In this document: piece by piece, positions 2,446 through 46,585 of the stretch
How positions within the stretch are numbered: position 1 is the first letter of the stretch
Layout: the number at the start of each line of letters is the position of its first letter
The notes under the pieces: generated by a model
Seen by the model: the letters and a program-made list of their open reading frames with translations, nothing else
What the model was told of the DNA's origin: nothing
Databases searched by the model: none
From: Antrodiella citrinella
Taxonomy: Eukaryota; Basidiomycota; Agaricomycetes; Polyporales; Steccherinaceae
Assembly: GCA_004802725.1 (NCBI GenBank)
Contig: SGPM01000008.1
Span: 1 to 64,000, forward strand
DNA: 64,000 bases
Direction: 5' to 3'
Program-made: the position numbers and the translations under genes

Positions 2446-3294
2446 ATGGTTCATTACAACTTTCCTCAAGGTCCAAAGAACGAAACCGACGCTCAAATAC
2501 TCACCGACATCATGGATATCAACGGTGCCGGTCTCGCGTTCGTTGCTTATGGTATGTCATCAGTGTTCTTGATCATATACGAGTGTCTACTCACGCAACC
2601 TGTTTACTCGCTAGGTGTTCATGCCACGTTGTTCTTCCTCTGCTTCGCTTTACTCTGGGAGGAGAGGCGAAAGAAACCCAAAGTGACATGGGGATGGATC
2701 ATTTACAGCACCGTGCTCTTTATCTTGGGCACTATCGGGAACGGTGTAAACATGTTCCTCAAGCAAGATGCCATCGTCAATCATCGCAGTTACCCTGGTG
2801 GTCCGGGTCAATTCGAGATTGAGCAGTACGCTTTACCGTACAATGCTGCGGGCACCGTCATATTCATCTTTGGTGCTTGGCTTATTGACGGTCTCATGGT
2901 AAGTGCCCGATCTGTCTTTTGATGTTGTATGCAGAACGAACTGAAAGATATGGTGCAGATATTTCATTTTTACATCATCTTAAGTCCGAGGTGGTGGGTC
3001 ATGAGCATCCCAGTTACTGTCTACGCGGTCTCTATCGGTGAGTCTGGCATATGCAACGCTGCTTCTCCAGCTGTAGAAACTCACAAGGATATTGCGTTGC
3101 TCACAGTGATGTCCATTCTCCTATTGCACCAGATTGCAGGTTGGGGGGCCTGTAATGGAACGGCTTCAGCATCGAGGGGGAACGCAACACAGTCGAATGG
3201 CGACTCGCCGCCGGAGGGAGCAGTGGCGGCATTGACTGCTATCAACAATAATCCCAAGAGGATTATGTTCAGAGAATACATCGTGGAAGGGTAA
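2446..3294 (+). pseudogene. Truncated polytopic membrane protein (paralogue of 11.2-12.3 kb gene)
   Basis: The frame starts MVHYNFPQGPKNET and continues over an intron (from 2552) into GVHATLFFLCFALLWEERRKK, then helices around TVLFILGTIGNGVNMFL and the family-like segment RSYPGGPGQFEIEQ. After a second intron it reads IFHFYIILSPRWWVMSIPV, and after a third TVMSILLLHQIA. In the paralogue on the minus strand near 11.2-11.7 kb the equivalent of this last segment is followed by about 100 residues with more helices. Here it jumps straight to a polar Asn/Ser tail ending REYIVEG. The simplest reading is an internal deletion removing the last transmembrane helices. The family is a hypothetical seven-helix type frequent in Agaricomycetes; its function is unknown to me. 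It could still be expressed as a short protein. Confidence 0.6.
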
Positions 3295-4107
3295 AGCAGT
3301 ACGTAATCTCTTTTTCCGTGTAGTGGTAAGGTGAATATGAAGCTCTAGGATCTGAATTGAGGCTTCACTGCAACGAGGGATCGCTCCTTATACGCGTTGC
3401 AGCTGCCGATTTTGAATATGTTGTCTTCCTGCTATTGCTGGTCAAATTCCTGCTAACTCGTGCTCCGGCAACTATTGCTGTCTGCGGATGTGAAGCATCG
3501 TGGAAACATCACCGTCGGACGAAGATTGCAACTTTGCAAGATAGGTTCTCCCAAACATGGCATCTTCGGGGAGTCGGTGTGCAACACTCATCATGAGCGC
3601 CGTGAGACCGACCTCAAGTTCCAAGTTTCTCTCATGGACGTCGAAGGCGCGGTCTGTCCACCAGCTGTTGCATCGCTTCTTCCGAATCACACTTCCCTTG
3701 TTCAAACTGTGTTACAGCACGGTCTCCGAGCACACAGACCTGTACATAATAGTATCCGACAGGTACTTTCAATGCCGACGATCATTGGAGAGGTCGTGAT
3801 TCGCCCTATCATGCAAGCAGGATCTATTCAAGTGCGTATCAATACCATCTGCCAGTCGTTGTTGTTGATTGGGCATCTCAGTGTGCGTTTAGATAGTCGT
3901 ACCCTATTGTCCAACCAAGTATAGTGATGTTTTCGGCGAACGACACTGGTCTGGACAAGACAATGAAGGTGTATTTGGTGCAGCCTGCGACCAAACAGAA
4001 CTTTCTCGGTACAATATTGTGTATACATCGGAGTATATATCACGTACAAGTATACTTTTCCCTACGAGTCTAATTCGAGGAGCAGATCGATCAAGTAATA
4101 TCGTCCC
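3295..4107. other. Intergenic stretch, no supported gene
   Basis: About 0.8 kb between the truncated membrane gene and the convergent F-box gene. The longest frame (about 3460-3924, plus) gives no recognisable motif. Nothing else is supported. Confidence 0.45.
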
Positions 4108-5865
4108 TTACTGCTCCGAGTCCCACGAAGCTGTCAGAGGATACGTTGGAGTAACGTTATCGACGGTGAACGGCGACTCTTCCAGCACTTTCTTCCTAGC
4201 ATCGCCTGTAATCTCTTCTATGCCAGGAGAACCAATTCTGGGACGCCACGACACCTCCCACAAGACGTCGTATTGCCGCTGCTTGCATAGAAAATGGATG
4301 TATTTTACTTGTGGGAGGCGTTCGGCCAATTGATGGACGAATGCCCAAGCACCCATAGGTAGTAGGAAATTGTCGATAGGATCCGGAATCTCAAGTTTTG
4401 CATTTTCCCTGAATGAGTCGTGATCGAATTCAAGAGCAAGGAAAACGAGAGAGAGGTTCTCGAGGCTCTCGATAAACTTGTCCTGTAATCGTAAGGGTAT
4501 TAGGATCTGTGACCGGTAGAGAGGATCGGTAGAACGCACCAAGGCCTGAAACATATCTAGTGTACAATGATTGAGATAGAGACACACTCGCAGATGAGAG
4601 GTCTCAGCGACAGGGAAAATGCGCGATAACGCGTCGAGTGAGAACCCCGAGAAGAATATCATGATGCTCAGATGCATTGGTTGGATGTCGTTCAAGCAAG
4701 TCCACAACCGCGAGAGTTGGACCTCAGCTCCAATTTGTACACCACCCCAAAAGCGAACCGGGCACCCGAGGGCAAGGGAATACGTGATCAACTCGTCTGC
4801 GATGAGGGAATGGAGAGATGTCCAATGGTATTCTGACTCCATGTTTGCGAGCCTTCGTTCGTCTACATCAATGGAGTCCGTGTTGTCCCCATCGAGACGG
4901 AGACGAGTCAAGTTTGGGAAGGTATAGGTCAAATCCGCCAGGTCATATGTATCCCAGTAGTAGGTCTCGACGGAGAGCAAATCGACACGGGGATACTGGA
5001 ACCCATCATACGCGCTCAGGCTTGGGGGATGGACTAGTTTCAGGTCTATGAGATACTCCGCGAACCCGTCAAAAAGTGTCGCAGCTTCCCCGGCCTCGTT
5101 GTCATTTTTTCCGCGCGACCAAAAGTCCTCATCGAAGGAGATCGTGACGGATGTGACAGGCGACTGCATAGATTCGAGCAGAAGGGTGCCCTGCTCTCGA
5201 GTGGCGTGGAGTGTAACGCAGTGCAGGTTGCGTAGAGAACCGAAAGCATTTGTAAGACCGTCACAAATTGTCAATAGATCGTCCGCATAGTCGAGCCAAA
5301 TGGTCTGTAGATCTTGTGCGTTCGTGATAACGCGGACTAGATCGTCGGAGACACATGACAAGTTGTTAAATTCCCAAATTTCGAGATGAAGAGAGCGCAA
5401 AAGTGCAGATCGACTCTCATCCTGAAGCATGAACGAACAGAATGAACGTAGGCTGCGAACGCTGCGTGCGGGATACCCGTTCTTCATCATCAGACATACT
5501 CCGAGGTGTTCTTTGGACAGTGTCCAGCATGTCTGCCTCAACTGCGATAAAGTCGCCCTGTCCATGAATGGCATCAGGTAAAGGAGAATGTCCCATGGCA
5601 GGCTTATAGAAAATCCGTTGAATGGGCTGGGGCTGGAATAAGATAACGGGAGTTGTATCAACTCGTATGTTTTGTAAGAGTGGAGCAGGACGGAAGAATG
5701 TGAGACGCACCTCTTTAAAACTACTCCTGCATAAACTGCGACTCGGAATACCTTGTCCGACCCTCCTATGACTACACATCTGTTGTCCATGCTAATAAAG
5801 AAAACAGAACTTGGAAGACGGAAATCTAGCGTTGGTGAGCGAGGTTTGCACACAACAGCGTACAA
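4108..5865 (-). CDS. F-box protein with leucine-rich C-terminal part
   Basis: A single uninterrupted frame of up to 585 residues. Residues about 85-125 contain an F-box-like segment (LPWDILLYLMPFMDRATLSQ, then RQTCWTLSKEHL), the domain that binds Skp1 in SCF ubiquitin ligases. The rest resembles the irregular leucine-rich repeats of Agaricomycete F-box proteins, with recurrent L..L.L and L..L.N patterns, and would select the substrate. The true start is uncertain. The N-terminal 60 residues before the F-box have low homology appeal, and MDNRCVV about 25 codons in is an alternative start; a short intron between it and the F-box cannot be excluded. No partner can be inferred from context. Confidence 0.75.
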   Translation of the reverse strand: MYAVVCKPRSPTLDFRLPSSVFFISMDNRCVVIGGSDKVFRVAVYAGVVLKRCVSHSSVLLHSYKTYELIQLPLSYSSPSPFNGFSISLPWDILLYLMPFMDRATLSQLRQTCWTLSKEHLGVCLMMKNGYPARSVRSLRSFCSFMLQDESRSALLRSLHLEIWEFNNLSCVSDDLVRVITNAQDLQTIWLDYADDLLTICDGLTNAFGSLRNLHCVTLHATREQGTLLLESMQSPVTSVTISFDEDFWSRGKNDNEAGEAATLFDGFAEYLIDLKLVHPPSLSAYDGFQYPRVDLLSVETYYWDTYDLADLTYTFPNLTRLRLDGDNTDSIDVDERRLANMESEYHWTSLHSLIADELITYSLALGCPVRFWGGVQIGAEVQLSRLWTCLNDIQPMHLSIMIFFSGFSLDALSRIFPVAETSHLRVCLYLNHCTLDMFQALVRSTDPLYRSQILIPLRLQDKFIESLENLSLVFLALEFDHDSFRENAKLEIPDPIDNFLLPMGAWAFVHQLAERLPQVKYIHFLCKQRQYDVLWEVSWRPRIGSPGIEEITGDARKKVLEESPFTVDNVTPTYPLTASWDSEQ

Positions 5866-13677: not shown

Positions 13678-13723
13678 GTATAAACAGTCTCGCTTCCAAT
13701 TTTCGACAACTCAGTCCTTCAGA

Positions 13724-14406
13724 ATGGCACGCCTCCGCGCTCAGCATGTTCTCATGAGCTGCATTGGCTTCGTTTTCTTCCTCAACCTGTTGATATGGAG
13801 TTATTTTCTGATTAGAGAATGGAGAAAGGCTGACTTCGCTCCAGGTACCAGTAAGCTCAACACGATAGTATACTTCACTGGCATTTACTGATTTACTGAC
13901 CCTTCCCCCCAGCGTACGTGGGCGATGACTATCCCGTCTATTTCCCCGTGCGTGCGACTCCGCCAGTCGCTCAAGTGATGGAAGAGTCGGTACACTACCT
14001 GATCGACGGGGACGACGCTCGCGATAATTGGGCCTTGAGCGTACGCAGGAACTACAGCCTGCACACCGCACTGGGGCTCGAGCATCGCTCGTTCGCAGTT
14101 GGGATGGCGCACCAGATGCATTGCCTTCGTCTCATGCGTTTGGCTCTCACCGGAATCTACGACGAAAAGACGCAGGGCCACTTCACACACTGTCTTCACT
14201 ACATCAGGCAGATGGTAATGTGTGACCCCAATCTCACCCTCGAACCGGCGGACGTGTTGGAAAGAGACTTTGAAGTGGAGAGGACTGGAGCAACGCATGT
14301 CTGCAAAGCTCAACATCGCGTACTTGGTGGCGTTTTTACAACCCAAGAACCCGTCGTGGTCCGATGTGGATCAGCACGAAGTCGCAAGCTCGTACATCGC
14401 TTTTGA
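13724..14406 (+). CDS. UstYa-family (DUF3328-like) protein with replaced C-terminus
   Basis: Exons 13,724-13,844 and 13,913-14,406 encode 204 residues. An N-terminal anchor (about residues 8-32, CIGFVFFLNLLIWSYFLI) is followed by YVGDDYPVYFPV and the two HxxHC motifs of the family, HQMHC and HFTHC, then CLHYIRQMVMCDPNLTLEP. UstYa/UstYb proteins catalyse oxidative cyclisation of RiPP precursors in ascomycete dikaritin pathways. The protein is a close paralogue of the one at 42,622-43,288. Identity stops abruptly after ERTGATHVC: the paralogue continues RDWRAVYGAMDDG, whereas here 36 unrelated residues follow because the DNA runs, out of frame, into a partner-gene copy. The catalytic motifs are kept, so activity is possible. 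Confidence 0.8.
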
Positions 14407-15032
14407 GGAGGCCTACAAGTCTGGCAGGTACAATGTGAATGGCACCAACGTCCCGCCGACCATGGTGTTCCCGCTCGTGCTGGCTCAATTAAATCAGTCA
14501 GACCCAGACAAATCATACATCGACACACATAGCTTCATATCTCGGATAGGCACTATCTATCCAAGCGATCGCCATGTGTTGGTATCTCCTAAGGTGCAGT
14601 CTAAAGTATTCTCGTGCTCGCTGTGCACTGACGAGCCCTCAGGAGTCGACTATCGCTCAGTTTTATGCCGGAGATTACGGCATGGAACGGTGCACGATCA
14701 AGATCATGTTCCCAGAGCTCAACGCTCAGATCTTACCCTCGGGCTCGGCGTCCATCCAGGTGTGGCGAGTGAAAGCGCAACGAAAGCTCGACATCCACTC
14801 GTTGAGTTGGAAGAAGCGTCCGGAGCGCGAGAGCATCGTCGCGTCTTGGAAAGTGCATAACAATCAGACCATGGAGTCGGCCGAGTTCGTGTGCCCTTCT
14901 GGCTCGTACCAAACGTTCGAGCTTGCATGCGGGGGCAGCTCCAACGACTGCGGCACAGTAGACTTTCGTCAAGAGACAAGAATGAAGACGATAGTGTGTG
15001 CTGTCCTGATTCCTCTGCGACGCGTACTGTAA
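14297..15032 (+). pseudogene. 5'-truncated copy of the UstYa partner gene
   Basis: From 14,297 the frame MSAKLNIAYLVAFLQ matches the inside of the membrane segment of the gene at 40,132-41,185 (SALNIVYLVATFQ). It then continues ASSYIAFEEAYKSGRYNVNG, PPTMVFP, IYPSDRHVLVSPK, an intron, ESTIAQFYAGDYGMERC, QILPSGSASIQVWRVKAQRK and SAEFVCPSGSYQTFELAC. The first exon and the start of the membrane helix are missing. The copy overlaps the end of the UstYa-like frame, so a deletion fused two neighbouring genes out of frame. Compared with the intact gene the last donor site has also lost a base, changing the extreme C-terminus. Translation from the internal ATG is conceivable, but a soluble or mis-anchored product would result. 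Confidence 0.7.
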
Positions 15033-15364
15033 GACTGAGTACATTGTCAGGGTTCTGGATGATACAAAGGCCGTCAATTTGAATGTAGTAGAGAACCTGC
15101 GCACTGTAATTTTCGTCTGGTATTGAGATTTAGTCGAAACGAAGGAAGAGAATTATTGACGAGTTGAATGAACATCATGATTGACATTCAACTTGAATGT
15201 TGTCCCCGCGCGCCTAATATTGTAAGCGACGTTCTCCACGTGGCACATGATCCTCGAGGCGGTCGTCGTCCGCCCTCATTCCGCCCTGCCATCACGATTG
15301 TCAACTATCCTTTCACGACCGACGCCGACGCTTTTGAGCTTGTTCAACGACTATATGCTTGAGG

Positions 15365-17340: not shown

Positions 17341-18130
17341 CTAAACTTGTCGGCTAGAAATTGTGCATACCGTTATAATCATCGCCAAAGCGCAGACCGC
17401 CGTCCATAGTCCGGTGTTGACAGTGATGAAACTTGAAGTCAATCTATTGATGGCCCGCATTGTGCTGAAACGAACCAAGCGTTGGATCAGAGAGCATTCA
17501 CAATCGCGTATAAATGACTGGCTCGTACTTTGAGTTCCATGCTTTGCCACGCAGACACCATTGCCAAACGAAATAGAGCAGGATAGCGGAAATGATTATA
17601 TCCACCCCGGCACCCACGGCCCAAAACGATTGCGACAGTTTCTACGGATCACGCATATCAGCAAACGGACAGCCAGTCATGTTTGGATGATGGATGTTGA
17701 CTTACCTTAATGGCAGCAATGGCGGCAGCCCTGTCCGACCCCCCTGGAAACTTCGAAATTAGTGTCAGCGGTCGAACTACGAAGATAAGGACGGTGCATA
17801 CGCAAGAACGAAAAATGCTGTACGACGGACTCAGTCTCGAGGGACACAAGACAAGCACGATTGACGTACCAATGTATCCGCCTAAAGGGTATTGAGTGTC
17901 AGTCACATTTTTCCACACATAGGAATATGCACTTATCAAATTGAAACAAGCAACAAGGAATCTAACCGAAAGTGAGAGGATTGCGGTTTCGAGCTACTAT
18001 GTCACTCACAAATAATCCAAACAATGTCCAACCCCAGCCGAGACCAGCTCAAGTGACGGATCTGATGACTGCAGTGACAGGAAACATGTACGTAGTCAGT
18101 GTCCGGGTGTTGTGTATAAGAGACATGCTC
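17341..18130 (-). pseudogene. Decayed DUF6534-type membrane protein
   Basis: The minus strand preserves AINRLTSSFITVNTGLWTAVCALAMII and, upstream, KLSQSFWAVGAGVDIIISAI with LLYFVWQWCLRGKAWNSK and GGYIG. These align with exons of the intact gene at 35,442-37,217 (INRLTFITVNTGLWTAACALAVII). The conserved C-terminal NLYVALYFIQGTLYCN block is absent; the frame ends TVCTISSRQV. The 5' exons cannot be followed past about 18,130, where the frame is interrupted by stops. It is therefore a truncated, probably dead copy. Confidence 0.65.
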
Positions 18131-35441: not shown

Positions 35442-37217
35442 TTAACAGGGTGAACATACCGAAGCAATTGTCGGGCGATTAAATGATATCCCCGTAGCTT
35501 GCACCGTACTCAACCCTGTCGTCTCTCCGAGGTCGCCGCAAATGAAGCCACGCGTGTTGAGGTTGGCCAAGAAGGTGTTGCAGTACAGTGTTCCCTGGAT
35601 GAAGTACAGGGCGACATAGAGGTTCACGTCGGGCCTTACAGCCAGCTAAACACATGAATACGTGTAAGTAGTGGTGGGGGGTATTCGAGAAAGCAAATGG
35701 ACAAACAGATATGATGACTGCGAGAGCGCATGCTGCTGTCCATAGTCCGGTATTAACAGTAATGAAAGTCAGCCTGTTGATGATCTTCATCGTGCTTAAA
35801 CGTGGATCGCTGTGAACTCCCAGACCTTTTACGTTTGACGACTTGCACATACCTCCTGGAGGTCCATTCCTGGTCTTGCAGACGCCATTGCCAGACGAAG
35901 AAGAGAAGAATAAGGGATATAATAATGTCCTCCGCGGCACCGACACCCCAGAATGATTGCGGAAGTTTCTGAAAGGGGTTTTATGAATATATTGAACGCA
36001 AACGTGAAAATCTTCACTGACCCTGATCGCAGCAACGCCTGCCGCGTCGTGTGGTGCATTGATGCTAAGTCGAGGTGTGAGAGACGGTTGATGTATGAGT
36101 ATACAGAGGGTACTCACGCGAGAACAATGAAAGCTGCGCTGCAGACTTAATCTTCGGTGAACTCATGAACTTAAGAATGTACGCACCAATATATCCGCCT
36201 AAGAGATGGTGTCAGTTCACGGCAGTTACTACCAACAGGTTCAAAGTACTCACCAAGTTGGTACAAAGAGCAAGGAACCTAGTCGATTGTTAGGCCGTCT
36301 TGCAGGATGAAATCAGGTTGTAGCACTCACGAAAGCAAATAGTAGCCAACGCCAGCGACCGTGAACAATATCTCTGACGACTAAGAGATCATTGTTATCT
36401 ATGTCAATCCAGGAATAGAGAAGGGAGACTGCTCACATTTATATATACGCCATGCAAAGAATAGCTGCACGATGACTGTCATGAACGTCTAAATGCAGAC
36501 ATCAACGACTGAATGATGGCCACGAAAATAAAAAATGCTCACGGTGAAGAGGCCTGCGATCTGAGCGTCGTAGGCATTAGCGTGAGTGAAACAGTCGAAG
36601 GCACAACAGTCACACGTACGAGGGCTTCTCTAATGGTGCCATGATTGAGTATAAGGGCGAAAGACAGAGAAGCATAGAATTCCAGACGTACATGGACAAA
36701 CTCTGGGCGAAGACAGGATCGATGATAGAACGCCAAACTTAGAAAGAGAGCGATTGTCAGCATGACTAAGTGAGCGAGAAGAGACAACCATACCAGCACG
36801 AACAGTGAGCACGAAATGGGCGGAATCCATGGCCCTGTCACGACAGATTATAAACGTCACAGTGTTGAAGCAAAAAGTAGAGCATACCACAGGGTGACGA
36901 CCTGTACGCCATGCTCAGATCAACATGTAACCGATACCCTCAGCAGGAAGACTCACTAAGAACCTCACGAATTGACTGTCATGTTGATGATAGCTGCAAC
37001 CCGAGATGAGTTCATGCAATGCTCGTGAAGAGAGGCAAACATACTGAATGAAGTAAAGGAATCTTCAAATCACGAAACGTATCAGCGTTTGATATGGTTC
37101 GACAGCACGAGTATGTGCGTACGTTTGCATGCAAGTGATAGCATAAAGTCCAGTAGTCGTCAGAGCCGCCGCAAACACGTATACTGTGATGTGTTCTGAA
37201 TCCGGGAGGGGTGCCAT
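35442..37217 (-). CDS. DUF6534-type seven-helix membrane protein
   Basis: Many small exons (about a dozen) can be traced. It starts MAPLPDSEHITVYVF, then AAALTTTGLYAITCMQ at 37,217. It continues through FMTVIVQLFFAWRIYK, GGYIG, SINAPHDAAGVAAIR and KLPQSFWGVGAAEDIIISLI with LLFFVWQWRLQ. It ends with the diagnostic KIINRLTFITVNTGLWTAAC followed after an intron by RPDVNLYVALYFIQGTLYCN and TFLANLNTR. The last two blocks define DUF6534, a receptor-like family greatly expanded in Agaricomycetes with no proven ligand. The 5' exons between 36,300 and 37,200 are the least certain. A truncated relative lies at 17.3-18.1 kb. It borders the putative peptide cluster, but a role in it is unproven. Confidence 0.72.
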
Positions 37218-38440: not shown

Positions 38441-38664
38441 ATGCATATTAACCTCAGCACGCTCATCATCATCGCGGGCTCCCTTTTCGCGACAGCCAAT
38501 GCGGCTTTGCTCCCTCGTAATTCAGGTATGCTCATAGCTCGACCGTTTGCTTCCTTGACATTGACCTGTTCGACTCAGAGGGATGCATAGATTCCGCGGT
38601 GGGCGATTTTGACACACCGCCAGGAGAGAACACACGCCGTGAAGTTAATGGCTGTATCTTCTGA
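38441..38664 (+). CDS. Small secreted peptide precursor A (candidate RiPP precursor)
   Basis: Two exons, 38,441-38,525 and 38,579-38,664, split by a 53-base intron in phase 1, encode 56 residues. Residues 1-20 are a signal peptide (LSTLIIIAGSLFATANA, cleavage after ANA). The mature part starts ALLPRN and contains EGCIDSA and VGDFDTPPG. A dibasic RR then precedes the last seven residues, EVNGCIF. Peptide B has the same layout, the same intron position and phase, and the same VGDFDTPPG and GCIF blocks. The RR fits Kex2 cleavage, which would release EVNGCIF. Ascomycete dikaritin precursors such as UstA are also secreted and Kex2-processed, and UstYa-like genes lie 3-5 kb away. Expression and product are unknown. 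Confidence 0.72.
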
Positions 38665-39096
38665 TCTGCCAACAGTGTGTCTCCTTCTAGTGGCATTGCA
38701 GGAGACAAGAGCCTAATCCTTTCTTTTAGATATATAGACGAATAGACTCCGATATGAACCACGCACCCTTCAGTTCTCGAACATATGATATATCTATGTA
38801 GCGAGCATGCGCCATCCTAATTTTCGTGATTACGTTATGTATCACTTCCGACTGCTGCCTACAAATAGCATTGCATCACGCTATGCTGACACTGCGATGA
38901 GTTATGGAAGTCTACGATGACCCTTGAACAAGAGCCACATAATGACATCGGGCACGACGCAGATAAGAATCGCATGATCGTCGCGATGTCGTCAGGGTCT
39001 GCGAGACGGTGAAGATCGCGCAGTGCGTCAGGTCGATCCAGCAGGATTCAACGAGAGAAATAGACGACGTACCAATGCTAGGCGCAGTCCGGAGAA
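38665..39096. other. 3' flank of peptide gene A, no gene
   Basis: About 430 bases before the convergent peptidyl-tRNA hydrolase end. No coding evidence. Confidence 0.4.
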
Positions 39097-39785
39097 TTAA
39101 CGAGCTTCCGAAGAACTCTCGATAATCTTCTCAATGCTCGTCCAAGCAAGGTCGACACCTTTACCCCTGCGGCTTAAGAAGATCCGTTCTTCGTTCGAAA
39201 GCTTGCTCAAAACGTAGTCTGCCGCATCCTGGCTATTCCGATCGTTCTTTCCTATACCGACACGCAGGCGGTGAAAATCGGAGTTATTGCCTAGGGCCGC
39301 TATGACGCTCCGTACGCCGTTGTGTCCGTTCGCGGAACCACCGAATTTCGGTGCGATCACGAAAGGCCGGTGATCCAAAGAGTCATGGATCACCAGAAGT
39401 GAAGCAGGAGAACATCCAGCGATGCGGAGAACAGCTGCGACCGGGGGCCCAGAGATGTTCATAAACGTTTCTAAGCCAAAAGTCAGGTCGTAGGTAATAA
39501 TCTAGAACAGTCCTCGGCTGACAAGACACGAACTGGTTCTGAGGAGAGTCACCTTGACCGAATTTTCTCCTACCAAGACATCCCTCTGAGCGATGAACCC
39601 ATGCCGTTCGTTGGAGAGACGTACACCCAACCTCTCAGCCAAAGAGTCGATAAGGACATGCCCGACGCTGCCTGGAATATTAGTGGGCATTGCACCGCAA
39701 GTCAGATGATATAGGCATACCTGTGACGAGTAAACGGATGCGTGTGATTGCCTATACCAGCTATTACGAGTTGACGCAACCCCAT
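39097..39785 (-). CDS. PTH1: Peptidyl-tRNA hydrolase (bacterial-type Pth)
   Basis: Exons 39,721-39,785, 39,534-39,667 and 39,097-39,470 give 190 residues in one frame. The family motifs are in order: LVIAGIGNHTHPFTRHSVGH (active-site His region), then LAERLGV, LLRTKTFMNISGPPV across the second intron, LLVIHDSLDHRP (the His/Asp pair), GGSANGHNGVRSVI and FHRLRVGIGKND. The length is near the bacterial enzyme's usual 190-200. It cleaves the ester between peptide and tRNA in stalled peptidyl-tRNAs; in yeast the relative Pth1 is mitochondrial. Intron 1 uses the second of two closely spaced AG acceptors, which alone keeps TRHSVGH intact. It is inserted between the peptide gene and the UstYa-related genes, and its duplicate at 6.0 kb is dead. 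Confidence 0.92.
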
Positions 39786-40131
39786 TCAACAGACGTGCCA
39801 GCACTCAGCACACTGCCCTAGCGTGTAATCTCAAAATCGTAGAGGTCAAGATGAACGAAGTTCGAACGGTGCCGGGTGAAGTAGAGCTGAACCTGTAAAG
39901 ATTTACGGTTTCGATGAAGTGGCGGTCAACGTTCAACCCTAAATTGTGGTTACACAGGCGTCTATCAATTATTCTCAGACGTTTTGGGCCAGCTCCGCTT
40001 TCCCTTGTCTCTGCCGCTGCATTGGCCAACTTGAATGTGCGATTGCTTTTCAGTCATACGATAGAGCCTAAATCTGCTAGAAGAGTAAAAACTGTAGTGC
40101 GTGGTACTTTGTTGTGTAACTCTCTATCCTC
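39786..40131. promoter_or_regulatory. Hydrolase upstream region / partner gene 3' flank
   Basis: About 350 bases with no supported coding frame. Confidence 0.35.
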
Positions 40132-41185
40132 AAAGTGACGATCTTTGTACCATCCAGAACCCTGCGCTCATGACGCTCAGCTCTCACTGCATTCAAAATG
40201 AATATGATTCAGTACGCACCTAATGTTTTCACCCTTGTCTCTTGACGAAGGTCCACTATTCCGCAATCCTTTGTGTTGTCGGTGCATGCAAGCTCGAACG
40301 TTTGATATGAGCCGGAAGGGCACACAAACTCGGCCGACTCCACGGTCTGATTATTGTGCAGCTCCCAAGACGCGACCATGCTCTCGCGCTGCGGACGCGT
40401 CTTCCAATTCAACTTGTGAATATCGAGCTTCCTTTGCGCTTTCACCCGCCACACCTGAATGGATGCCGAGCCCGAGGGCAAGATCTGAGAGTTTGACTCT
40501 GGGAGCATCATCTTGATCGTGCAGCGTTCCATGCCATAGTCTCCGGCATAGAACTGAGCAATAGTAGACTCCTAAGACCCCGTCAAACATTATCATTGAA
40601 GGCAACATAGATCACTTGATACGCACCTTAAGAGATACCACCAATCGACGGTCGCTCGGGTAAAACGTACCGTCCAGAGACAACACACGGTGCGCGCCGA
40701 CATAGTATCTCTCTGGTTCTGACTGATTTATCGGAGCCAGTACAGATGGGAACAACATAGATGGCGGGACATTGGAGCCATTCACGTTGTATCTGCCTGA
40801 TTTGTGGGCCTCCTCGAAAGCGATGTACGAGCTTGCAAACTCGAGTTTGTCTACGTTCAAGGAGGACCACGCTGGGCTCTTGTACTGGAAAGTGGCCACC
40901 AGGTACACGATGTTGAGAGCCGAGCAGGTGAGCACTCCGAGGAAAGCCCAGTAGTACAGGCGCGGCATGCGTTGACTGTGCTCTTTAGCAGTCTCATAGT
41001 GCCCTGTGAGGTGAGTGCTCTGATGAGTTGGACTTGTCAGTCTACCGATACACAGTGGCCAATTTACCTCCTGTTTCCTTCAGCTCCACGCCTTCATGAG
41101 AGGCTTTACTCTTCGATTCTACTAGTAGTGGGCGGTCATCGGAGTCGTCGGATGTACGGAGCGGCGTATAGGTAGGAGAACGCAT
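40132..41185 (-). CDS. Membrane-anchored UstYa-partner protein of unknown function
   Basis: Four exons (41,068-41,185; 40,627-41,003; 40,571 down to 40,220; 40,132-40,163) give 292 residues. A 50-residue cytosolic head (MRSPTYTPLRTSDDSDDRPL) precedes one helix (YYWAFLGVLTCSALNIVYLV). The outer part carries ASSYIAFEEAHKSGRYN, FYPSDRRLVVSLK, ESTIAQFYAGDYGMERC, ILPSGSASIQVWRVKAQRK and SAEFVCPSGSYQTFELAC. I recognise this as a protein often found beside UstYa-like genes in Agaricomycetes; it may relate to the But2 C-terminal fold, but that is unsure. Three cysteines in the last block could form disulfides. A 5'-truncated copy is fused to the UstYa-like gene at 13.7-15.0 kb, so the pairing occurs twice in this window. 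Confidence 0.75.
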
Positions 41186-41770
41186 CTGACTAAAGCCTTT
41201 CTGTGCAGGATATGCAAAGCCTGAGTACTTATGTCTACGGCCACTGTAACTTACAGACGTCGTCAAATCGCCGGATAGATGAGCGCCGGTGAGCACCCGT
41301 TTTGCACCCCGGCGATAAGTACTGTAAAAGTCACACATTGACAATTTTCAAGCGGCGGTGATGTGAGGGCGTTTACAGTAAGACGCATAAAGTTAGAGCT
41401 TATTCGTCGCCTGCAATTATTCTCAGGGATACTTATGATGTACATTTTACAGAACTCCGAAGGACCATGAGTTTTACACCGCCAGCCTTCACAATCAGCG
41501 CGGCGGTGGCTCTGTGTTTTGGAATGCAGTGGCGGACTATAATAGCTGGTTGTGCTGATCATTTACAGAAGGCCACTTCCCGGCGGACAAATGAATCATA
41601 CACATGATGCAGTGAGGCTCAGTCAGTAGGCACGTACTTCTGGCCTCTCACCCACGCGCACTGCACACCTGTCTCTCGGAACCTTTATTCAGACTTCCCC
41701 ATGCGTAGCCGTCCATTCTGATCTACTCAGACTCTGCCTCCAACATCACACCGTATTCTTCATTGTGACA
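41186..41770. other. Intergenic stretch, partner gene upstream region
   Basis: About 585 bases between two minus-strand genes. No supported gene; the promoter of the partner gene should lie at its left side. Confidence 0.35.
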
Positions 41771-42408
41771 TCAGCTGCGCGACGTCGACACCAAAAGCGT
41801 GATTTGCTTACCGCGTTGATTATCGCGCTGAGCTTGATAGATGCGCCGCCAGTCCTGGCACACCATCGGGCCCCAAGGCTCTACACGGTGCTCTCCTGTG
41901 AAGGAAATCACCTTCTCAAGCTTTGTGTCTGCGCGGCAGAGCACCGTTTGCCTGATGTAATTCATGCAGTGCCGGGCCAGAGGGCCTGCGCGGTCGCGGG
42001 CGGCATATGTGCTGCGCAGGACGTCCAGACAACGGAGTTGGTGGAAGACGGAAACCATGAACGGCTCCGGAGACGCTCCGCCATCAACGTCGACATGAAC
42101 AATTCCACCGTTGGGAGGGACGAGCAAAGCCCACTCTACTGCCGCATCTGAGCTGTTGAGTATGTAGCGCACAGACTCTTCCGAGTACATTGCGACCTGA
42201 GGAAGTTTTCCGACGTCCCAGGTCGGCGAAACAGGGCTGCGAAGTCCTGTTCAAAGTTCGAACTCGTCAGCGAAAATAGGTTGAGGCCCCGGAAAGACTC
42301 GGTCCGCTCACGTTCATTCTTTTGCTCCAGGATGTGCCAGATGCCACTGCCTGCCGCATACAACGCAATCAGTGATACGAGGAGGACTAGGATGGTGAAG
42401 GAACCCAT
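41771..42408 (-). CDS. UstYa-family protein with altered HxxHC motifs
   Basis: Exons 42,299-42,408 and 41,771-42,236 (62-base intron) give 191 residues. The anchor is TILVLLVSLIALYAAGSGIW, followed after the intron by PVSPTWDVGKLPQ, SEESVRYILNSSD and the family core. The first motif reads HQLRC instead of HxxHC (His to Arg), and the second reads LARHC instead of HxxHC, while CMNYIRQTVLC is kept and VCQDWRRIYQAQ ends the domain. UstYa proteins need the HxxHC histidines for oxidation in known pathways, so this one may be inactive, use another residue, or act as the helper in a heterodimer like the UstYa/UstYb pair. A TATATA-like box lies at 42,458-42,465. Confidence 0.8.
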
Positions 42409-42621
42409 ATGAGCGGTCTTGATACTGTCGTTCGAAAGAGAGAGACCTATGATAGACGTATATACTATGCGAAGTTACAGGCACCTGTGAGATCAATCTT
42501 CAAGTATCGCTTCTGCCAGCGGTGGAAGGGATCAGACAAAAGACAAATATGACATGCTTCGAGATGGAATGAATAGCAGATACAGTATCACAGCCGACCA
42601 AGGATCGGATGTACAACGGAA

Positions 42622-43288
42622 TCACGAAGATGCTTCCTTCATCCATGGGGAGCGCACATCCATCCAGGTGGTCCACCCATCATCCATCGCGCCGTACACA
42701 GCCCGCCAGTCCCTGCAAACATGTGTCGCGCCCGTTCTCTCCACTTCAAAATCTCGCTCCATTACATCTGCCGGTTCGAGAGTAAGGTTGGGATTACACA
42801 AGACCATATGTCTTATGTAGTGGAGGCAGTGTGTGAAGTGGCCCTGTGTCTGCTCGTCGTAAGCTCCGTTCAGAGCTGCACGCATGAGGCGAAGACAGTG
42901 GAGTTGATGCTCCATCGCGACGGTGAATGCGCGATGTTCGGGTCCAACCAAAGTATACAGGCTGAAGTTGTTGCGAAGGCTCAAAGCCCAATTGTTGCGG
43001 GCTTCATTCCCGTAGATCGGGTAGTGCGCCGTCTCTTCCATCACTTGTACCACTGGCGCAGCTGGGCGCACAGGGAGGTAGATAGGATAGTCGTCACCCA
43101 CATAAGCTATTCAAGATAGACCATTAGACAGAGTACACTTGGACTGCACGAGTCAACTCACTGAACTCTGAAGTGGGCTCGGCTTTTCTCCATTCACCAA
43201 TGAGAAAGTAACTCCATATCATCAGGTTGAGAATAAAAAGAGAGCCAAGACTGCCCGTGAGGATATGCTGAGCGTGGAGACGACCCAT
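42622..43288 (-). CDS. UstYa-family (DUF3328-like) putative RiPP oxidase
   Basis: Exons 43,162-43,288 and 42,622-43,106 give 203 residues. An N-terminal anchor (GSLFILNLMIWSYFLIG) is followed by TYVGDDYPIYLPVRPA, YGNEARNNWALSL, the first motif HQLHC, the second motif HFTHC, CLHYIRHMVLCNPNLTLEP and the end HVCRDWRAVYGAMDDG. Both HxxHC motifs are complete, as in the ascomycete UstYa/UstYb proteins that oxidatively cyclise ustiloxin, phomopsin and asperipin precursors. The paralogue at 13,724 shares intron position and most residues. It is tandem with the altered copy at 41.8-42.4 kb (213 bases apart) and divergent from peptide gene B, so the 43.3-44.1 kb gap is a shared promoter region. Confidence 0.85.
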
Positions 43289-43332
43289 GCTGAAGCTGTT
43301 GATAACTTAGTGAGGATAGATGAGTGTGACCG

Positions 43333-43338
43333 TTTATA
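43333..43338 (-). promoter_or_regulatory. TATA box of the UstYa-like gene
   Basis: TATAAA on the minus strand, 44 bases before the start codon at 43,288. Confidence 0.5.
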
Positions 43339-43395
43339 CGCACTTTTTGATACAGGTGTTTAAGGGTCGCGCGTTATGCGCACCAATACTAGTAT

Positions 43396-43431
43396 ATCCG
43401 AGATCTCAGGCTCCCAAGTCACATCTCGGAT
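43396..43431. promoter_or_regulatory. Inverted repeat ATCCGAGAT / ATCTCGGAT upstream of UstYa-like gene
   Basis: Two perfect 9-base inverted copies at 43,396-43,404 and 43,423-43,431, 18 bases apart, about 60 bases upstream of the TATA box. The TCCGAG core is the same as in the palindrome at 13,662-13,677 before the paralogous gene. This suggests a shared regulator site; no regulator gene is visible in the window. Confidence 0.4.
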
Positions 43432-43970
43432 GTTTGCAGGGTCCGTCGCACGCAAATCGCCACGATGATGATCAGTATTCAGAATGGAACTTTGACGGGC
43501 GATTGGAGTTATTGCTGAATACTGACTGAACCAATATGTCACTCACGAAGGCACTGCGTGCTGTGAACGCATTGACCCGGTACATGCTGAGGGTGCAGAC
43601 CATGGCCGTGAGCCGTGTGAAGAGAAGCCTATGGACAGCATGCGAGCGGAAAAGGGTTGATGCGCCCGAAAGAGAAGCTGTCTTGCAGCTGGGTGCTCGG
43701 ACAGATGGATCGAGCGTAACTTTGAACATTGCATTATTATGGTGCTGCGAACCCTGCTCGGCAAGATTAGTGACAGGAACAGTGCCAGTGGAAAATAACA
43801 GCCAATCGTTCACTGGCAAATTCCCGAGCTGAGACCGCCGACAGAGTCGTTATACTTGCTTTATGCATATGTTGAACTGATGGCACTCAATAATTCCTCT
43901 TTGGTATGTCACGGTTGACCAATCCCATGGCCATAGCAATCAAAGGCTGCTCCGGGTCAGCGTGGCAGGG

Positions 43971-43976
43971 TATATA
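43971..43976 (+). promoter_or_regulatory. TATA box of peptide gene B
   Basis: TATATA followed by GGCC, 90 bases before the start codon at 44,066. It resembles the box of peptide gene A and the one before the relic at 13,086. Confidence 0.5.
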
Positions 43977-44065
43977 GGCCCTAATGAAGTGAGTTGTGAA
44001 ATGGAGTCCAATTCGAGTCTTGAAATCGTTCGCACCTCCTCTCCAAGACCCTACAATCATACGCC

Positions 44066-44286
44066 ATGCACTTCAGTCTTAACATTGTTTTTCTTGTGGG
44101 AGTTATGCTGGCGGCAGTCAACGCAGCTATAATCCCTCGCAATGGAGGTAAAGCTGATGCCTCGAGCATTTCTTTCTTGACGCTGAATCATCTTTCTATC
44201 TAGGATCAACCTGCGGCGCTGCGGTAGGAGACTTCGATACGCCTCCCGGGGCTGAACGTCGGGATGTGGAGGGCTGTATCTTCTAG
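44066..44286 (+). CDS. Small secreted peptide precursor B (candidate RiPP precursor)
   Basis: Exons 44,066-44,147 and 44,204-44,286 (56-base intron, phase 1) encode 54 residues. The signal peptide (FSLNIVFLVGVMLAAVNA) is followed by AIIPRNGG, TCGAA, then VGDFDTPPG as in peptide A, a dibasic RR and the last seven residues DVEGCIF. Against peptide A the final seven differ only at two positions (E/D and N/E). Constraint at the very C-terminus and in the VGDFDTPPG spacer, but not elsewhere, is what one expects of a processed peptide. The gene lies between the UstYa-like gene (divergent) and the P450 (same strand, 420 bases downstream). It could also be an ordinary small secreted effector-like protein. 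Confidence 0.72.
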
Positions 44287-44706
44287 ACCGTCACATATTC
44301 CCGTTCTAGTACGTCTGTTCCAACTAGCTCTGCTTCCTGACATAACTTTCGTTTGCCTTCAGATTACAGCGGCTCAGACCATATTACTGCGCACCTTGTT
44401 ATGTTAGTGTCCCGAGTAGATCTGGACTCATGGAGAGGGAGAAGTCAGAGGGACGACGGGCGTTAGATTATCATCTGTATTCTACCGAGGATTCAACTAG
44501 ATTTCGTCTTCGTCTCTTACGACGATACGACGATACATAATTCCCACCCCCACGCTCACCATACCGTATGTACCACGATGCTGAAAGATGCAGAATCAAT
44601 TCGGAACCGCTGGTATTGATGGAATACATAACGCGCTCAGGAGAAGGAAGTCATACGTCCTCAACTTCCACTTGATCAGTAGCCCCCTACAGTCGACGAT
44701 CTTGAG
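44287..44706 (+). promoter_or_regulatory. P450 upstream region, no gene
   Basis: About 420 bases between peptide B and the P450 start. No coding frame; the P450 promoter must lie here, but no clear TATA box was found. Confidence 0.35.
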
Positions 44707-46585
44707 ATGGCTCTCTGGTGGATACCTTCTCTGGTCAACCTGTTCGCAGTGGGAGGAGTAGTTCTCCTCGTTGCGGTCGTAAGACGCGTCTATCTTCATC
44801 CGCTTGCCCATTTCCCCGGCCCTAAGCTCGCTGCCGCGACTTACTGGTATACCGCATATTACGAAGTCTGGAAAGATGGAGGCCTTGTTGAGCATTTGGT
44901 AGAGCTGCACAAGCAATATGGTACGTGACACTGTGGCCGTAGACGACGAATCGCTAATGCGGTGTTCGTAGGACCTGTGGTACGAATAGGACCCAACGAT
45001 GTGCGTATCTTGCGCAATGACTGCCTTTGCGTGCCGCTGCTGATCACAGATACATGCTCAGCTTCACTTCAGCGACCCGCAAGCGTACAATGATATCTAC
45101 TCTGAGAGGTTTCCAAAGGATCCGAAACTGTATGGCGCGTTGCACCAGGACCGCTCGCTGTTCGGAATGCCTGACCCTCGCGAAGCCAAAATCCGCCGTG
45201 AAATCATGAGCCCCATGTTCTCACGGAGAGCGATTGTCGACTTGGAGCCTGTTGTACTTCAAAAGGTTGGACGCCTCCTATTTTCCTATTCGCAGCCTGC
45301 TGAATGTTCGCATACAGGTTGAGACTTTGGTCTCTGCGATCCTAGCGCACGAGAAGACAGGAGAACCCGTGAACATGCACCGCGCGTATCGTTCTGCCAC
45401 ACTGGACATCATCATAGCGTATTGCTTTGGAACCGACTATGGTGTTATCACGACTCCCCAGTTCCGGCACAAGCTCATCCTCAACTGGGAGATTGTATTC
45501 CCTTTCTTCCACATCGTAAAGAACTTCACCGTTATCTTCCCGCTCATGATCACCATGGCCAAGATCTCTTCTTGGCTCAGTCCTCCCAAGGACACTGGCG
45601 AACTCGGGAACATCCAGAAATACCTAGAGAAGCAAGTCGATACATTCCTTGCCGATCCTGCTTTGCTCGAAAACGCGGAGCACGAGAATATCTTCCAGCA
45701 CTTGATGAAGCCCAATCCGCAAAAAGGCCAGCCGGAAATCCTGAGCAGACAAGATCTTGTTGAGGAGGCTGGTAGTACGCTGGCGGCGGGAAGCGACACT
45801 GTTGGCAACACTATGACTGTCGGCACGTTCTACATATTAAGCGATCCCAGAGTTTGCAACAAGCTAGTGGCGGAATTGGAAGAGGCTTGGCCAGATGTAG
45901 AGGTTCCAATGCACCTTGAAATCCTGGAAAAGCTCCCGTACTTGGTGCGCGTATACCTTTCTCAGCTGGACGACCATAGGGACTGAATTTATGCTATCGC
46001 AGACTGCAGTCATCAAAGAAAGCTTGCGCCTATCTCATGGCGTCGTTCATCCCGCGCCGCGTGTGGTCACCAGTGCCTCCGTCATTGACGGTTACCATAT
46101 TCCGGCTGGTGTGGGTGTATCATGTTTATCGCCGTCGACTGCGTTCTCATGAAAAATTTGCAGGCTGTCGTTGCAATGGGATCGACCTTCATGCATTATA
46201 ATGCGGACTTGTTCCCGGAGCCTTATGTATTCCGTCCCGAGCGATGGCTCCAACCTGACACGGACATCGAGGTTGTTGCGTTCTCCAAAGGTCCTAGAAG
46301 TTGTTTGGGTATCAAGTAGGTCTTTTCAAAATTTCGCCCATTCAGTAAGAACGGTGTTGACGCATGTTCTCAAAGTCTTGCTTGGTGCGAGATGTATTTG
46401 CTGTTTGGGTACATGTTCCGTAAGGTGGATATGTCATTACATGAGACGAGGTACGATGTTCGCTGTTTAGCTTTTCATGCTGATGCTGACTCGGATCCAG
46501 CATCGAGGATATGGCTTTCCGATGCCACTTGACACCGACGTTCCGCAAAAGAATGATGCATTGCACCGTGAAATCTAGAGTGTAA
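44707..46585 (+). CDS. Cytochrome P450 monooxygenase
   Basis: Eight or so exons. The N-terminal anchor (FAVGGVVLLVAVVRRVYLHP) is followed by the Pro-rich hinge PLAHFPGPKLAAAT. The I-helix oxygen motif is LAAGSDTVGNT, the K-helix ExxR is KESLR, the PERF-type motif reads FRPERWLQP, and the heme loop is FSKGPRSCLGI with the cysteine ligand. The last exons (LAWCEMYLLFGYMFRKVDMS and IEDMAFRCHLTPTFRKRMM) complete a full-length protein ending at 46,585. Such P450s (CYP sensu lato E-class) hydroxylate or couple small molecules. Dikaritin clusters often contain a P450 (UstC), so its position beside peptide B supports, but does not prove, a joint pathway. Confidence 0.9.

Follow-up and report, generated by a model that had tools for sequence, protein, structure and literature searches.

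The first 64 kb of contig C581 (240,495 bases) of Antrodiella citrinella (Polyporales, Steccherinaceae; genome 30.0 Mb), here called the window, contain a gene cluster which we consider a candidate dikaritin-like pathway for a ribosomally synthesised and post-translationally modified peptide (RiPP). Between 38.4 and 46.6 kb lie two small precursor genes (pre1 and pre2), two UstYa genes, one But2 gene and one cytochrome P450 gene, and a peptidyl-tRNA hydrolase gene (Pth) is enclosed. From left to right the order is pre1 (+), Pth (-), But2 (-), UstYa-A (-), UstYa-B (-), pre2 (+) and P450 (+) (Table 1). Introns were placed by hand on the DNA for all models, and under these splice models the frames of all six cluster genes are open. 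The pre2 model, the only one confirmed by a deposited protein, is identical in every letter to EUX98_g883.

Both precursors pass our own signal-peptide rule, which combines hydrophobicity with small residues. Their second exons follow a shared plan, in which a variable Cys-containing stretch is followed by AVGDFDTPPG, the dibasic site RR and a C-terminal heptapeptide. The heptapeptides EVNGCIF (pre1) and DVEGCIF (pre2) are identical at five of seven residues. A first-pass annotation, made from the letters of this DNA, had described two tiny secreted precursors with a dibasic site before a near-identical C-terminal heptapeptide and a candidate core without Tyr; the spliced models bear this out, and the candidate core contains Cys. 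Between pre1 and pre2, nine of the ten AVGDFDTPPG codons differ, with nine silent and no replacement changes, and this block carries the strongest measured constraint in the precursors, above that on the heptapeptide. The heptapeptide codons differ by one silent and three replacement changes, all in the first three codons, while the GCIF codons are identical. Because the strongest constraint lies on AVGDFDTPPG, the heptapeptide need not be the sole product.

A search of the genome with pre2 returned three matches, namely its own exons (E 7.9e-13 and 3.7e-12) and exon 2 of pre1 (E 3.3e-4). The pattern GANTTYGANACNCCNCCNGG ([DE]F[DE]TPPG) with at most one mismatch occurred ten times in the genome versus twice for the reversed pattern. 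The only two exact matches were pre1 and pre2, and no precursor context was seen at the seven of the remaining eight near-matches that were read (all but L041). Chance open reading frames (ORFs) were rejected as an explanation for the pair, since pre2 is deposited as a protein and pre1 is its relative, with a ten-codon block in which every change is silent. GCIF-ending ORFs as a wider family were also rejected, with seven pattern matches in the genome versus four in the reversed control: two are pre1 and pre2, L014 has no stop, and L012, L013, L015 and L016 are without DFDTPPG. The L012 frame (~1430-1515, C55) ends in SKRGCIF with a dibasic KR directly before GCIF, probably by chance.

The two tandem UstYa-family genes of the first-pass annotation were confirmed: both proteins exceed the Pfam PF11807 cut-off, and the N-terminus is hydrophobic in each. 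A double HxxHC is the suspected active site of UstYa (PMC12048977), and DUF3328 enzymes are described as copper-dependent dicopper oxidases, in work on the asperipin-2a crosslink (PMC12186524). UstYa-B keeps both motifs (HQLHC and HFTHC), whereas UstYa-A reads HQLRC and LARHC. A database search with UstYa-B gave 31 relatives at E ≤ 0.001 among 63 candidates. The species-named relatives fall in genera which we take to be Agaricomycetes; Amylostereum, Hymenopellis, Mycena, Armillaria, Pleurotus and Obba are among the genera found. In the alignment of UstYa-B with these 31 relatives (n = 32, picked by similarity to UstYa-B), four His and four Cys are invariant, both HxxHC motifs included. No relatives of UstYa-B were found in the viral and prokaryotic collections. 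The UstYa profile gave no match in the PDB, and a single-sequence search there gave five weak matches (best E 0.086), which were taken as chance.

The deviating motifs of UstYa-A are a recurrent signature. In HxxRC...LxxHC, Arg replaces the second His of motif 1 and Leu the first His of motif 2, and all four A-type genes of the genome (window, C168, C309 and C90) have it. The change is common to all four loci and is therefore not recent decay. On these four of the seven UstYa contigs the A type is accompanied by a B type in which both HxxHC motifs are kept; the distance between the two is 7.4 kb on C168. A lone B-like UstYa gene is present on C9, and C584 and C565 have split UstYa frames with HxxHC at motif 2, the motif covered by our reading of them. 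We know of no biochemistry for the HxxRC/LxxHC type. From its motifs, UstYa-A would be a partner subunit with its metal site rebuilt or absent.

The UstYa-adjacent But2 proteins score above the PF09792 cut-off. The But2 protein of the cluster differs from But2 C-terminal domain proteins in general by its N-terminal hydrophobic segment and by its company: genome-wide, at E ≤ 0.01, all four PF09792 matches lie at most 1.5 kb from a UstYa frame (C309, C168 and two in the window), two of the four deriving from one duplication. But2 goes unmentioned in the main text of Umemura 2020 (PMC7329392). The stop codon lies at 40209 and not at 40132, where the gene end had been placed. The P450 is complete, as had been claimed, and contains FSKGPRSCLG, which we take to be the heme motif. 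Assignment to a named P450 family was rejected, the best NCBIfam match being ApyO (87.8 bits versus a cut-off of 525), and no P450 relatives at E ≤ 1e-3 were found in the other UstYa flanks examined. Pth had been considered a bystander, which fits its housekeeping identity. Its linkage to the cluster is old, because a Pth remnant is also present in a decayed duplicate of the block.

In the window this duplicate occupies 13.7-15.1 and 6.0-6.6 kb as an inverted, rearranged copy. Positions 42714-43295 correspond to 14305-13717 (73%), 40130-40917 to 15082-14309 (76%) and the Pth part 39149-39778 to 6611-6008 (67%). UstYa-B2 is joined directly to But2-C2 at 14305/14309, with the UstYa-A stretch lost. 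The public protein EUX98_g872 (P0002) spans this junction; it matches But2 and holds UstYa motifs. The membrane protein had been said to accompany UstYa twice in the window. Both pairs are real, but the second (13.7-15.0 kb) is a truncated, fused and decayed duplicate, so that the same arrangement is present once intact and once in decay. Signal-peptide exons of precursor genes may have left relics at 3278 (-; score 62 to pre2) and ~13140 (+; score 40); both scores are weak, and the latter is at background level (38-42). By eye, two related multi-pass membrane protein genes lie beside these relics, at ~2.4-3.3 kb and 11-12.3 kb.

Precursor candidates beside UstYa recur across the genome. A PF11807 profile search returned 15 exon-level matches on seven contigs, and 108 kb of flanks were examined on the six contigs other than C581. 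Signal-peptide precursor candidates were found near UstYa on six of the seven contigs (window, C168, C309, C584, C565 and C90; Table 1), and the dikaritin-like reading gains support from this recurrence. A scan for translated repeats gave arrays on four of the six other UstYa contigs (C168, C309, C584 and C565) and none on C9, on C90 or in the window's own UstYa regions. In an 85 kb control (five 10-kb regions and 35 kb of the window) there were three hits, all Arg-rich and of low complexity. In 36 kb of UstYa flanks we counted 10 short signal-peptide exons, against 5 in the control (one-sided binomial p 0.0034); with a duplicate count and a probable first exon of UstYa taken out, the numbers are 8 versus 5 (p 0.017). 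The rule behind these counts was set up with the candidates already known, and it misses C168:37144. One short signal-peptide exon of the control (~1203, -, in region L034, picked away from the UstYa contigs) ends in GRREPAKWEP and may belong to a gene for a linear Kex2-processed peptide (KEP).

At five loci, namely the window (pre2), C309, C584, C565 and C90, the precursor is divergent from the UstYa frame closest to it, at a distance of 0.7-1.2 kb as measured to the open frame and not to a proven start; on C168 the two are not divergent. Genome-wide searches with four precursor families (pre2 and three others) gave no further locus except one weak hit (E 0.02), and a Pfam scan of L022 of C168 found no family. 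On C565 a second signal-peptide protein with repeats around HMNNSRR and RLDARENE, rich in dibasic sites, is encoded at 83867-84680 (L031 ~3867-4680) and is perhaps another precursor.

Table 1. Features of the cluster, its decayed duplicate and the precursor candidates beside UstYa genes on other contigs. Positions without a contig name are those of the window.
Feature	Position	Strand	Remarks
pre1 precursor gene	38441-38664: exons 38441-38525, 38579-38664	+	56 amino acids; tblastn relation to pre2; exon 1 signal peptide and ALLPRNS, exon 2 ...AVGDFDTPPGENTRR then EVNGCIF, stop
AVGDFDTPPG block, pre1	38596..38625	+	codons compared with pre2 (see text)
Pth, peptidyl-tRNA hydrolase	39097..39804	-	PF01195 E 2.1e-27; scan covered only frame 39097-39501
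But2 membrane protein	40209..41185: exons 41185-41068, 41003-40627, 40571-40209	-	285 amino acids; PF09792 E 1.7e-7
UstYa-A	41771..42408: exons 42408-42312, 42246-41771	-	190 amino acids; PF11807 E 3.8e-14
UstYa-B	42622..43288: exons 43288-43162, 43106-42622	-	203 amino acids; PF11807 E 2.1e-13
pre2 precursor gene	44066-44286: exons 44066-44147, 44204-44286	+	54 amino acids; EUX98_g883; exon 1 signal peptide and AIIPRNGG, exon 2 ...AVGDFDTPPGAERR then DVEGCIF, stop
AVGDFDTPPG block, pre2	44221..44250	+	codons compared with pre1 (see text)
Cytochrome P450	44707..46585, 8 exons	+	501 amino acids, complete; PF00067 E 8.1e-61
Decayed duplicate	13717..15082	+	UstYa-B2 joined to But2-C2 near 14305/14309; part equivalent to 40918-42713 missing
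Precursor candidate	C168:37144	+	RIDATSFGNLxKK repeats beside UstYa
Precursor candidate	C168:38291	-	VPRKNAAVFAKARSE-type repeats
Precursor candidate	C309:10693	-	nine SADELxKEAxENVVLAA(K)R-kind repeats, one per exon
Precursor candidate	C584:50848	-	two exon repeats with EDDFVNSSYSNSHY
Precursor candidate	C565:81291	+	exon repeats with SYIEDGTTMVRY
Precursor candidates	C90:96356 and C90:97177	+	two genes, AKR and ARK sites, pre1/pre2 architecture, single-core by our reading

On the right side MDM31 is next to the cluster and forms its boundary, with KTI12 and an NIF phosphatase beyond. On the left side lie a DUF6534-like frame, Bax1-I and an alpha/beta hydrolase. The DUF6534 match is below the cut-off and was seen only at ~35.5-35.8 kb of the scanned part. 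Near this frame, 35702-35970 is 67% identical to 17366-17643 in direct orientation, perhaps as part of the duplication history.

The UstYa/DUF3328 enzyme is class-defining for dikaritins, and a P450 is named in the ustiloxin B cluster (PMC12048977). With the ascomycete dikaritins (ustiloxin, phomopsin and asperipin-2a, with which victorin is grouped) the locus shares the tandem UstYa/DUF3328 pair, the signal-peptide precursor, the dibasic Kex2 site before the candidate core and, as in ustiloxin B, a P450 in the cluster. It differs in its basidiomycete host, in the altered motifs of one UstYa, in the But2 companion and in the lack of a tyrosinase among the scanned frames. Furthermore, two single-core precursor genes stand in place of repeated cores in one precursor, a dikaritin feature (PMC9769878, PMC9233826), and the candidate core has Cys and no Tyr, whereas Tyr is present in the ustiloxin, phomopsin and asperipin cores. 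For victorin, cyclisation by way of Phe is described (PMC9769878 / PMC9233826). By the rule that the UstYa enzyme defines the class, the assignment is dikaritin-like; we do not call the cluster a dikaritin cluster in the narrow sense because the repeated-core and Tyr features are absent. The dikaritin-related pathway of the first-pass annotation is supported in part, gene content and recurrence favouring a UstYa-type RiPP locus. The repeated cores of classical dikaritin precursors, which pre1 and pre2 lack, the AVGDFDTPPG constraint and the altered UstYa-A motifs had gone unmentioned there.

Fungal KEPs, including those of Agaricomycetes (PMC7329392, PMC9769878), share the signal peptide and the dibasic site with pre1 and pre2. 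The KEP repeats between dibasic sites are absent from pre1 and pre2 but present in C168:37144, a textbook case. A repeat-based survey would miss pre1 and pre2, as they have no repeats. Basidiomycete KEPs with DUF3328 neighbours are already on record, numbering 103 of 1680 (6.1%) in Umemura 2020 (PMC7329392), where it was considered that the basidiomycete cyclisation motif might differ or that cyclisation hardly occurs. In Pleurotus, 16 UstYa-like genes are reported, six of them developmentally expressed (PMC8893723). A comparable basidiomycete UstYa, DUF3328 or dikaritin cluster was not found in titles or abstract openings of the literature, subscription literature being outside this scope.

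Taken together, the gene content, the precursor anatomy, the selection on the precursor and the recurrence of UstYa with precursor candidates in this genome suggest, with a probability of roughly 70%, that the cluster is a UstYa-type (dikaritin-like) RiPP pathway. Several observations weigh against it. There is one candidate core per precursor and no repeat in the window cluster, and of the four His common to the whole B-type set UstYa-A has only two. Selection on the heptapeptide is unsupported beyond the GCIF identity because three of its four codon differences are replacements. A protein database search for relatives of pre2 in other species gave one candidate, pre2 itself; this is weak evidence, as such a search depends on five-residue words in common and on small genes having been annotated. 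The subset of frames that was scanned showed no tyrosinase, methyltransferase, peptidase or transporter. No upstream element of at least 8 bases was common to four of the six upstream regions, and a common promoter element was rejected on this ground; six 7-mers were common to upstream regions, versus 0.73 expected from block shuffles. The UstYa gene of C9 showed no convincing precursor in its vicinity, the most plausible of three signal-like starts at 60-69 kb being 3.8 kb away. Finally, a neighbouring DUF3328 gene is absent for 94% of basidiomycete KEPs (Umemura 2020, PMC7329392).

This last figure also favors an alternative in which pre1 and pre2 are secreted and cut by Kex2 but not modified, as linear signals of the KEP type, and UstYa acts elsewhere or is a chance neighbour. 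Likewise, the signal-peptide exon of one UstYa-free control region (L034) has a dibasic site. We consider this explanation unlikely, given that secreted precursor candidates recur with UstYa on six of seven contigs and that pre1 and pre2 flank the contiguous UstYa-B/UstYa-A/But2 block, with no third intact copy in the genome. It is very unlikely that the cluster is the decaying, now productless remnant of a larger pathway. The paralogous block at 2-15 kb has indeed decayed and UstYa-A is without two His of the double motif, yet the six cluster genes are open, the A-type motif change is common to all four loci, and AVGDFDTPPG shows silent-only change. The presence of STE3 receptor matches on the contig (C581:127-166 kb), together with acidic and basic residues before a Cys near the C-terminus, which resembles a shortened prenylation box, could point to divergent mating pheromones. 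A CAAX box places Cys at -4, and basidiomycete pheromone precursors are without signal peptide; in both pre1 and pre2 Cys stands at -3 and a signal peptide is present. In addition, the precursor genes adjoin oxidases, and 83 kb separate pre2 from the closest STE3 match. Mating pheromones were rejected for the lack of a CAAX box and the presence of a signal peptide, and are a highly improbable identity. The STE3 matches form four groups (C581:127282-166055, ~83-122 kb from pre2) and perhaps mark a mating (PR) locus.

For the UstYa-type RiPP pathway, we infer the processing, the modification chemistry, the roles of UstYa-A and But2 and the identity of the core as follows. Pre1 and pre2 would be preproprecursors that are brought into the secretory path by their signal peptide, and Kex2 is predicted to cleave behind the RR that both share. 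In the Golgi lumen the precursor would be oxidatively crosslinked, or otherwise oxidised, by the membrane-anchored UstYa A/B pair, and the P450 could contribute further oxidation. But2 would be the membrane companion of UstYa, perhaps as a scaffold or a substrate-presenting partner. The modified product would most likely be the C-terminal [DE]VxGCIF peptide. Alternatively, the product may be an AVGDFDTPPG peptide with GCIF as a tail; if AVGDFDTPPG is not the product, it may be a recognition sequence. We also propose, very tentatively and with low confidence, an Agaricomycete form of UstYa pathway in which an obligate two-subunit oxidase, made up of a catalytic B and an A whose HxxRC/LxxHC site is rebuilt and conserved, would act with a But2 membrane companion on single-core Cys precursors to give a short peptide crosslinked between Cys and Phe or between Cys and Ile. 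If this is true, such mushroom pathways would have been overlooked because intron-bearing precursors of ~55 amino acids without repeats, and A-type enzymes without the double HxxHC, fail the usual search rules.

UstYa-type oxidases are known from mould toxin pathways and little studied in mushrooms. The product of the cluster in this wood-rotting polypore is probably a secreted peptide with chemical crosslinks. UstYa stands beside secreted precursor candidates on six of seven contigs of this single genome, which bears on the cyclisation question of Umemura 2020 (PMC7329392). Among the candidates, some are single-core or have a single repeat in each exon, and in all four A/B pairs one partner breaks the double-HxxHC rule. 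These loci make the question of peptide cyclisation in basidiomycetes concrete and testable, and suggest, from one genome, changes to the design of surveys.

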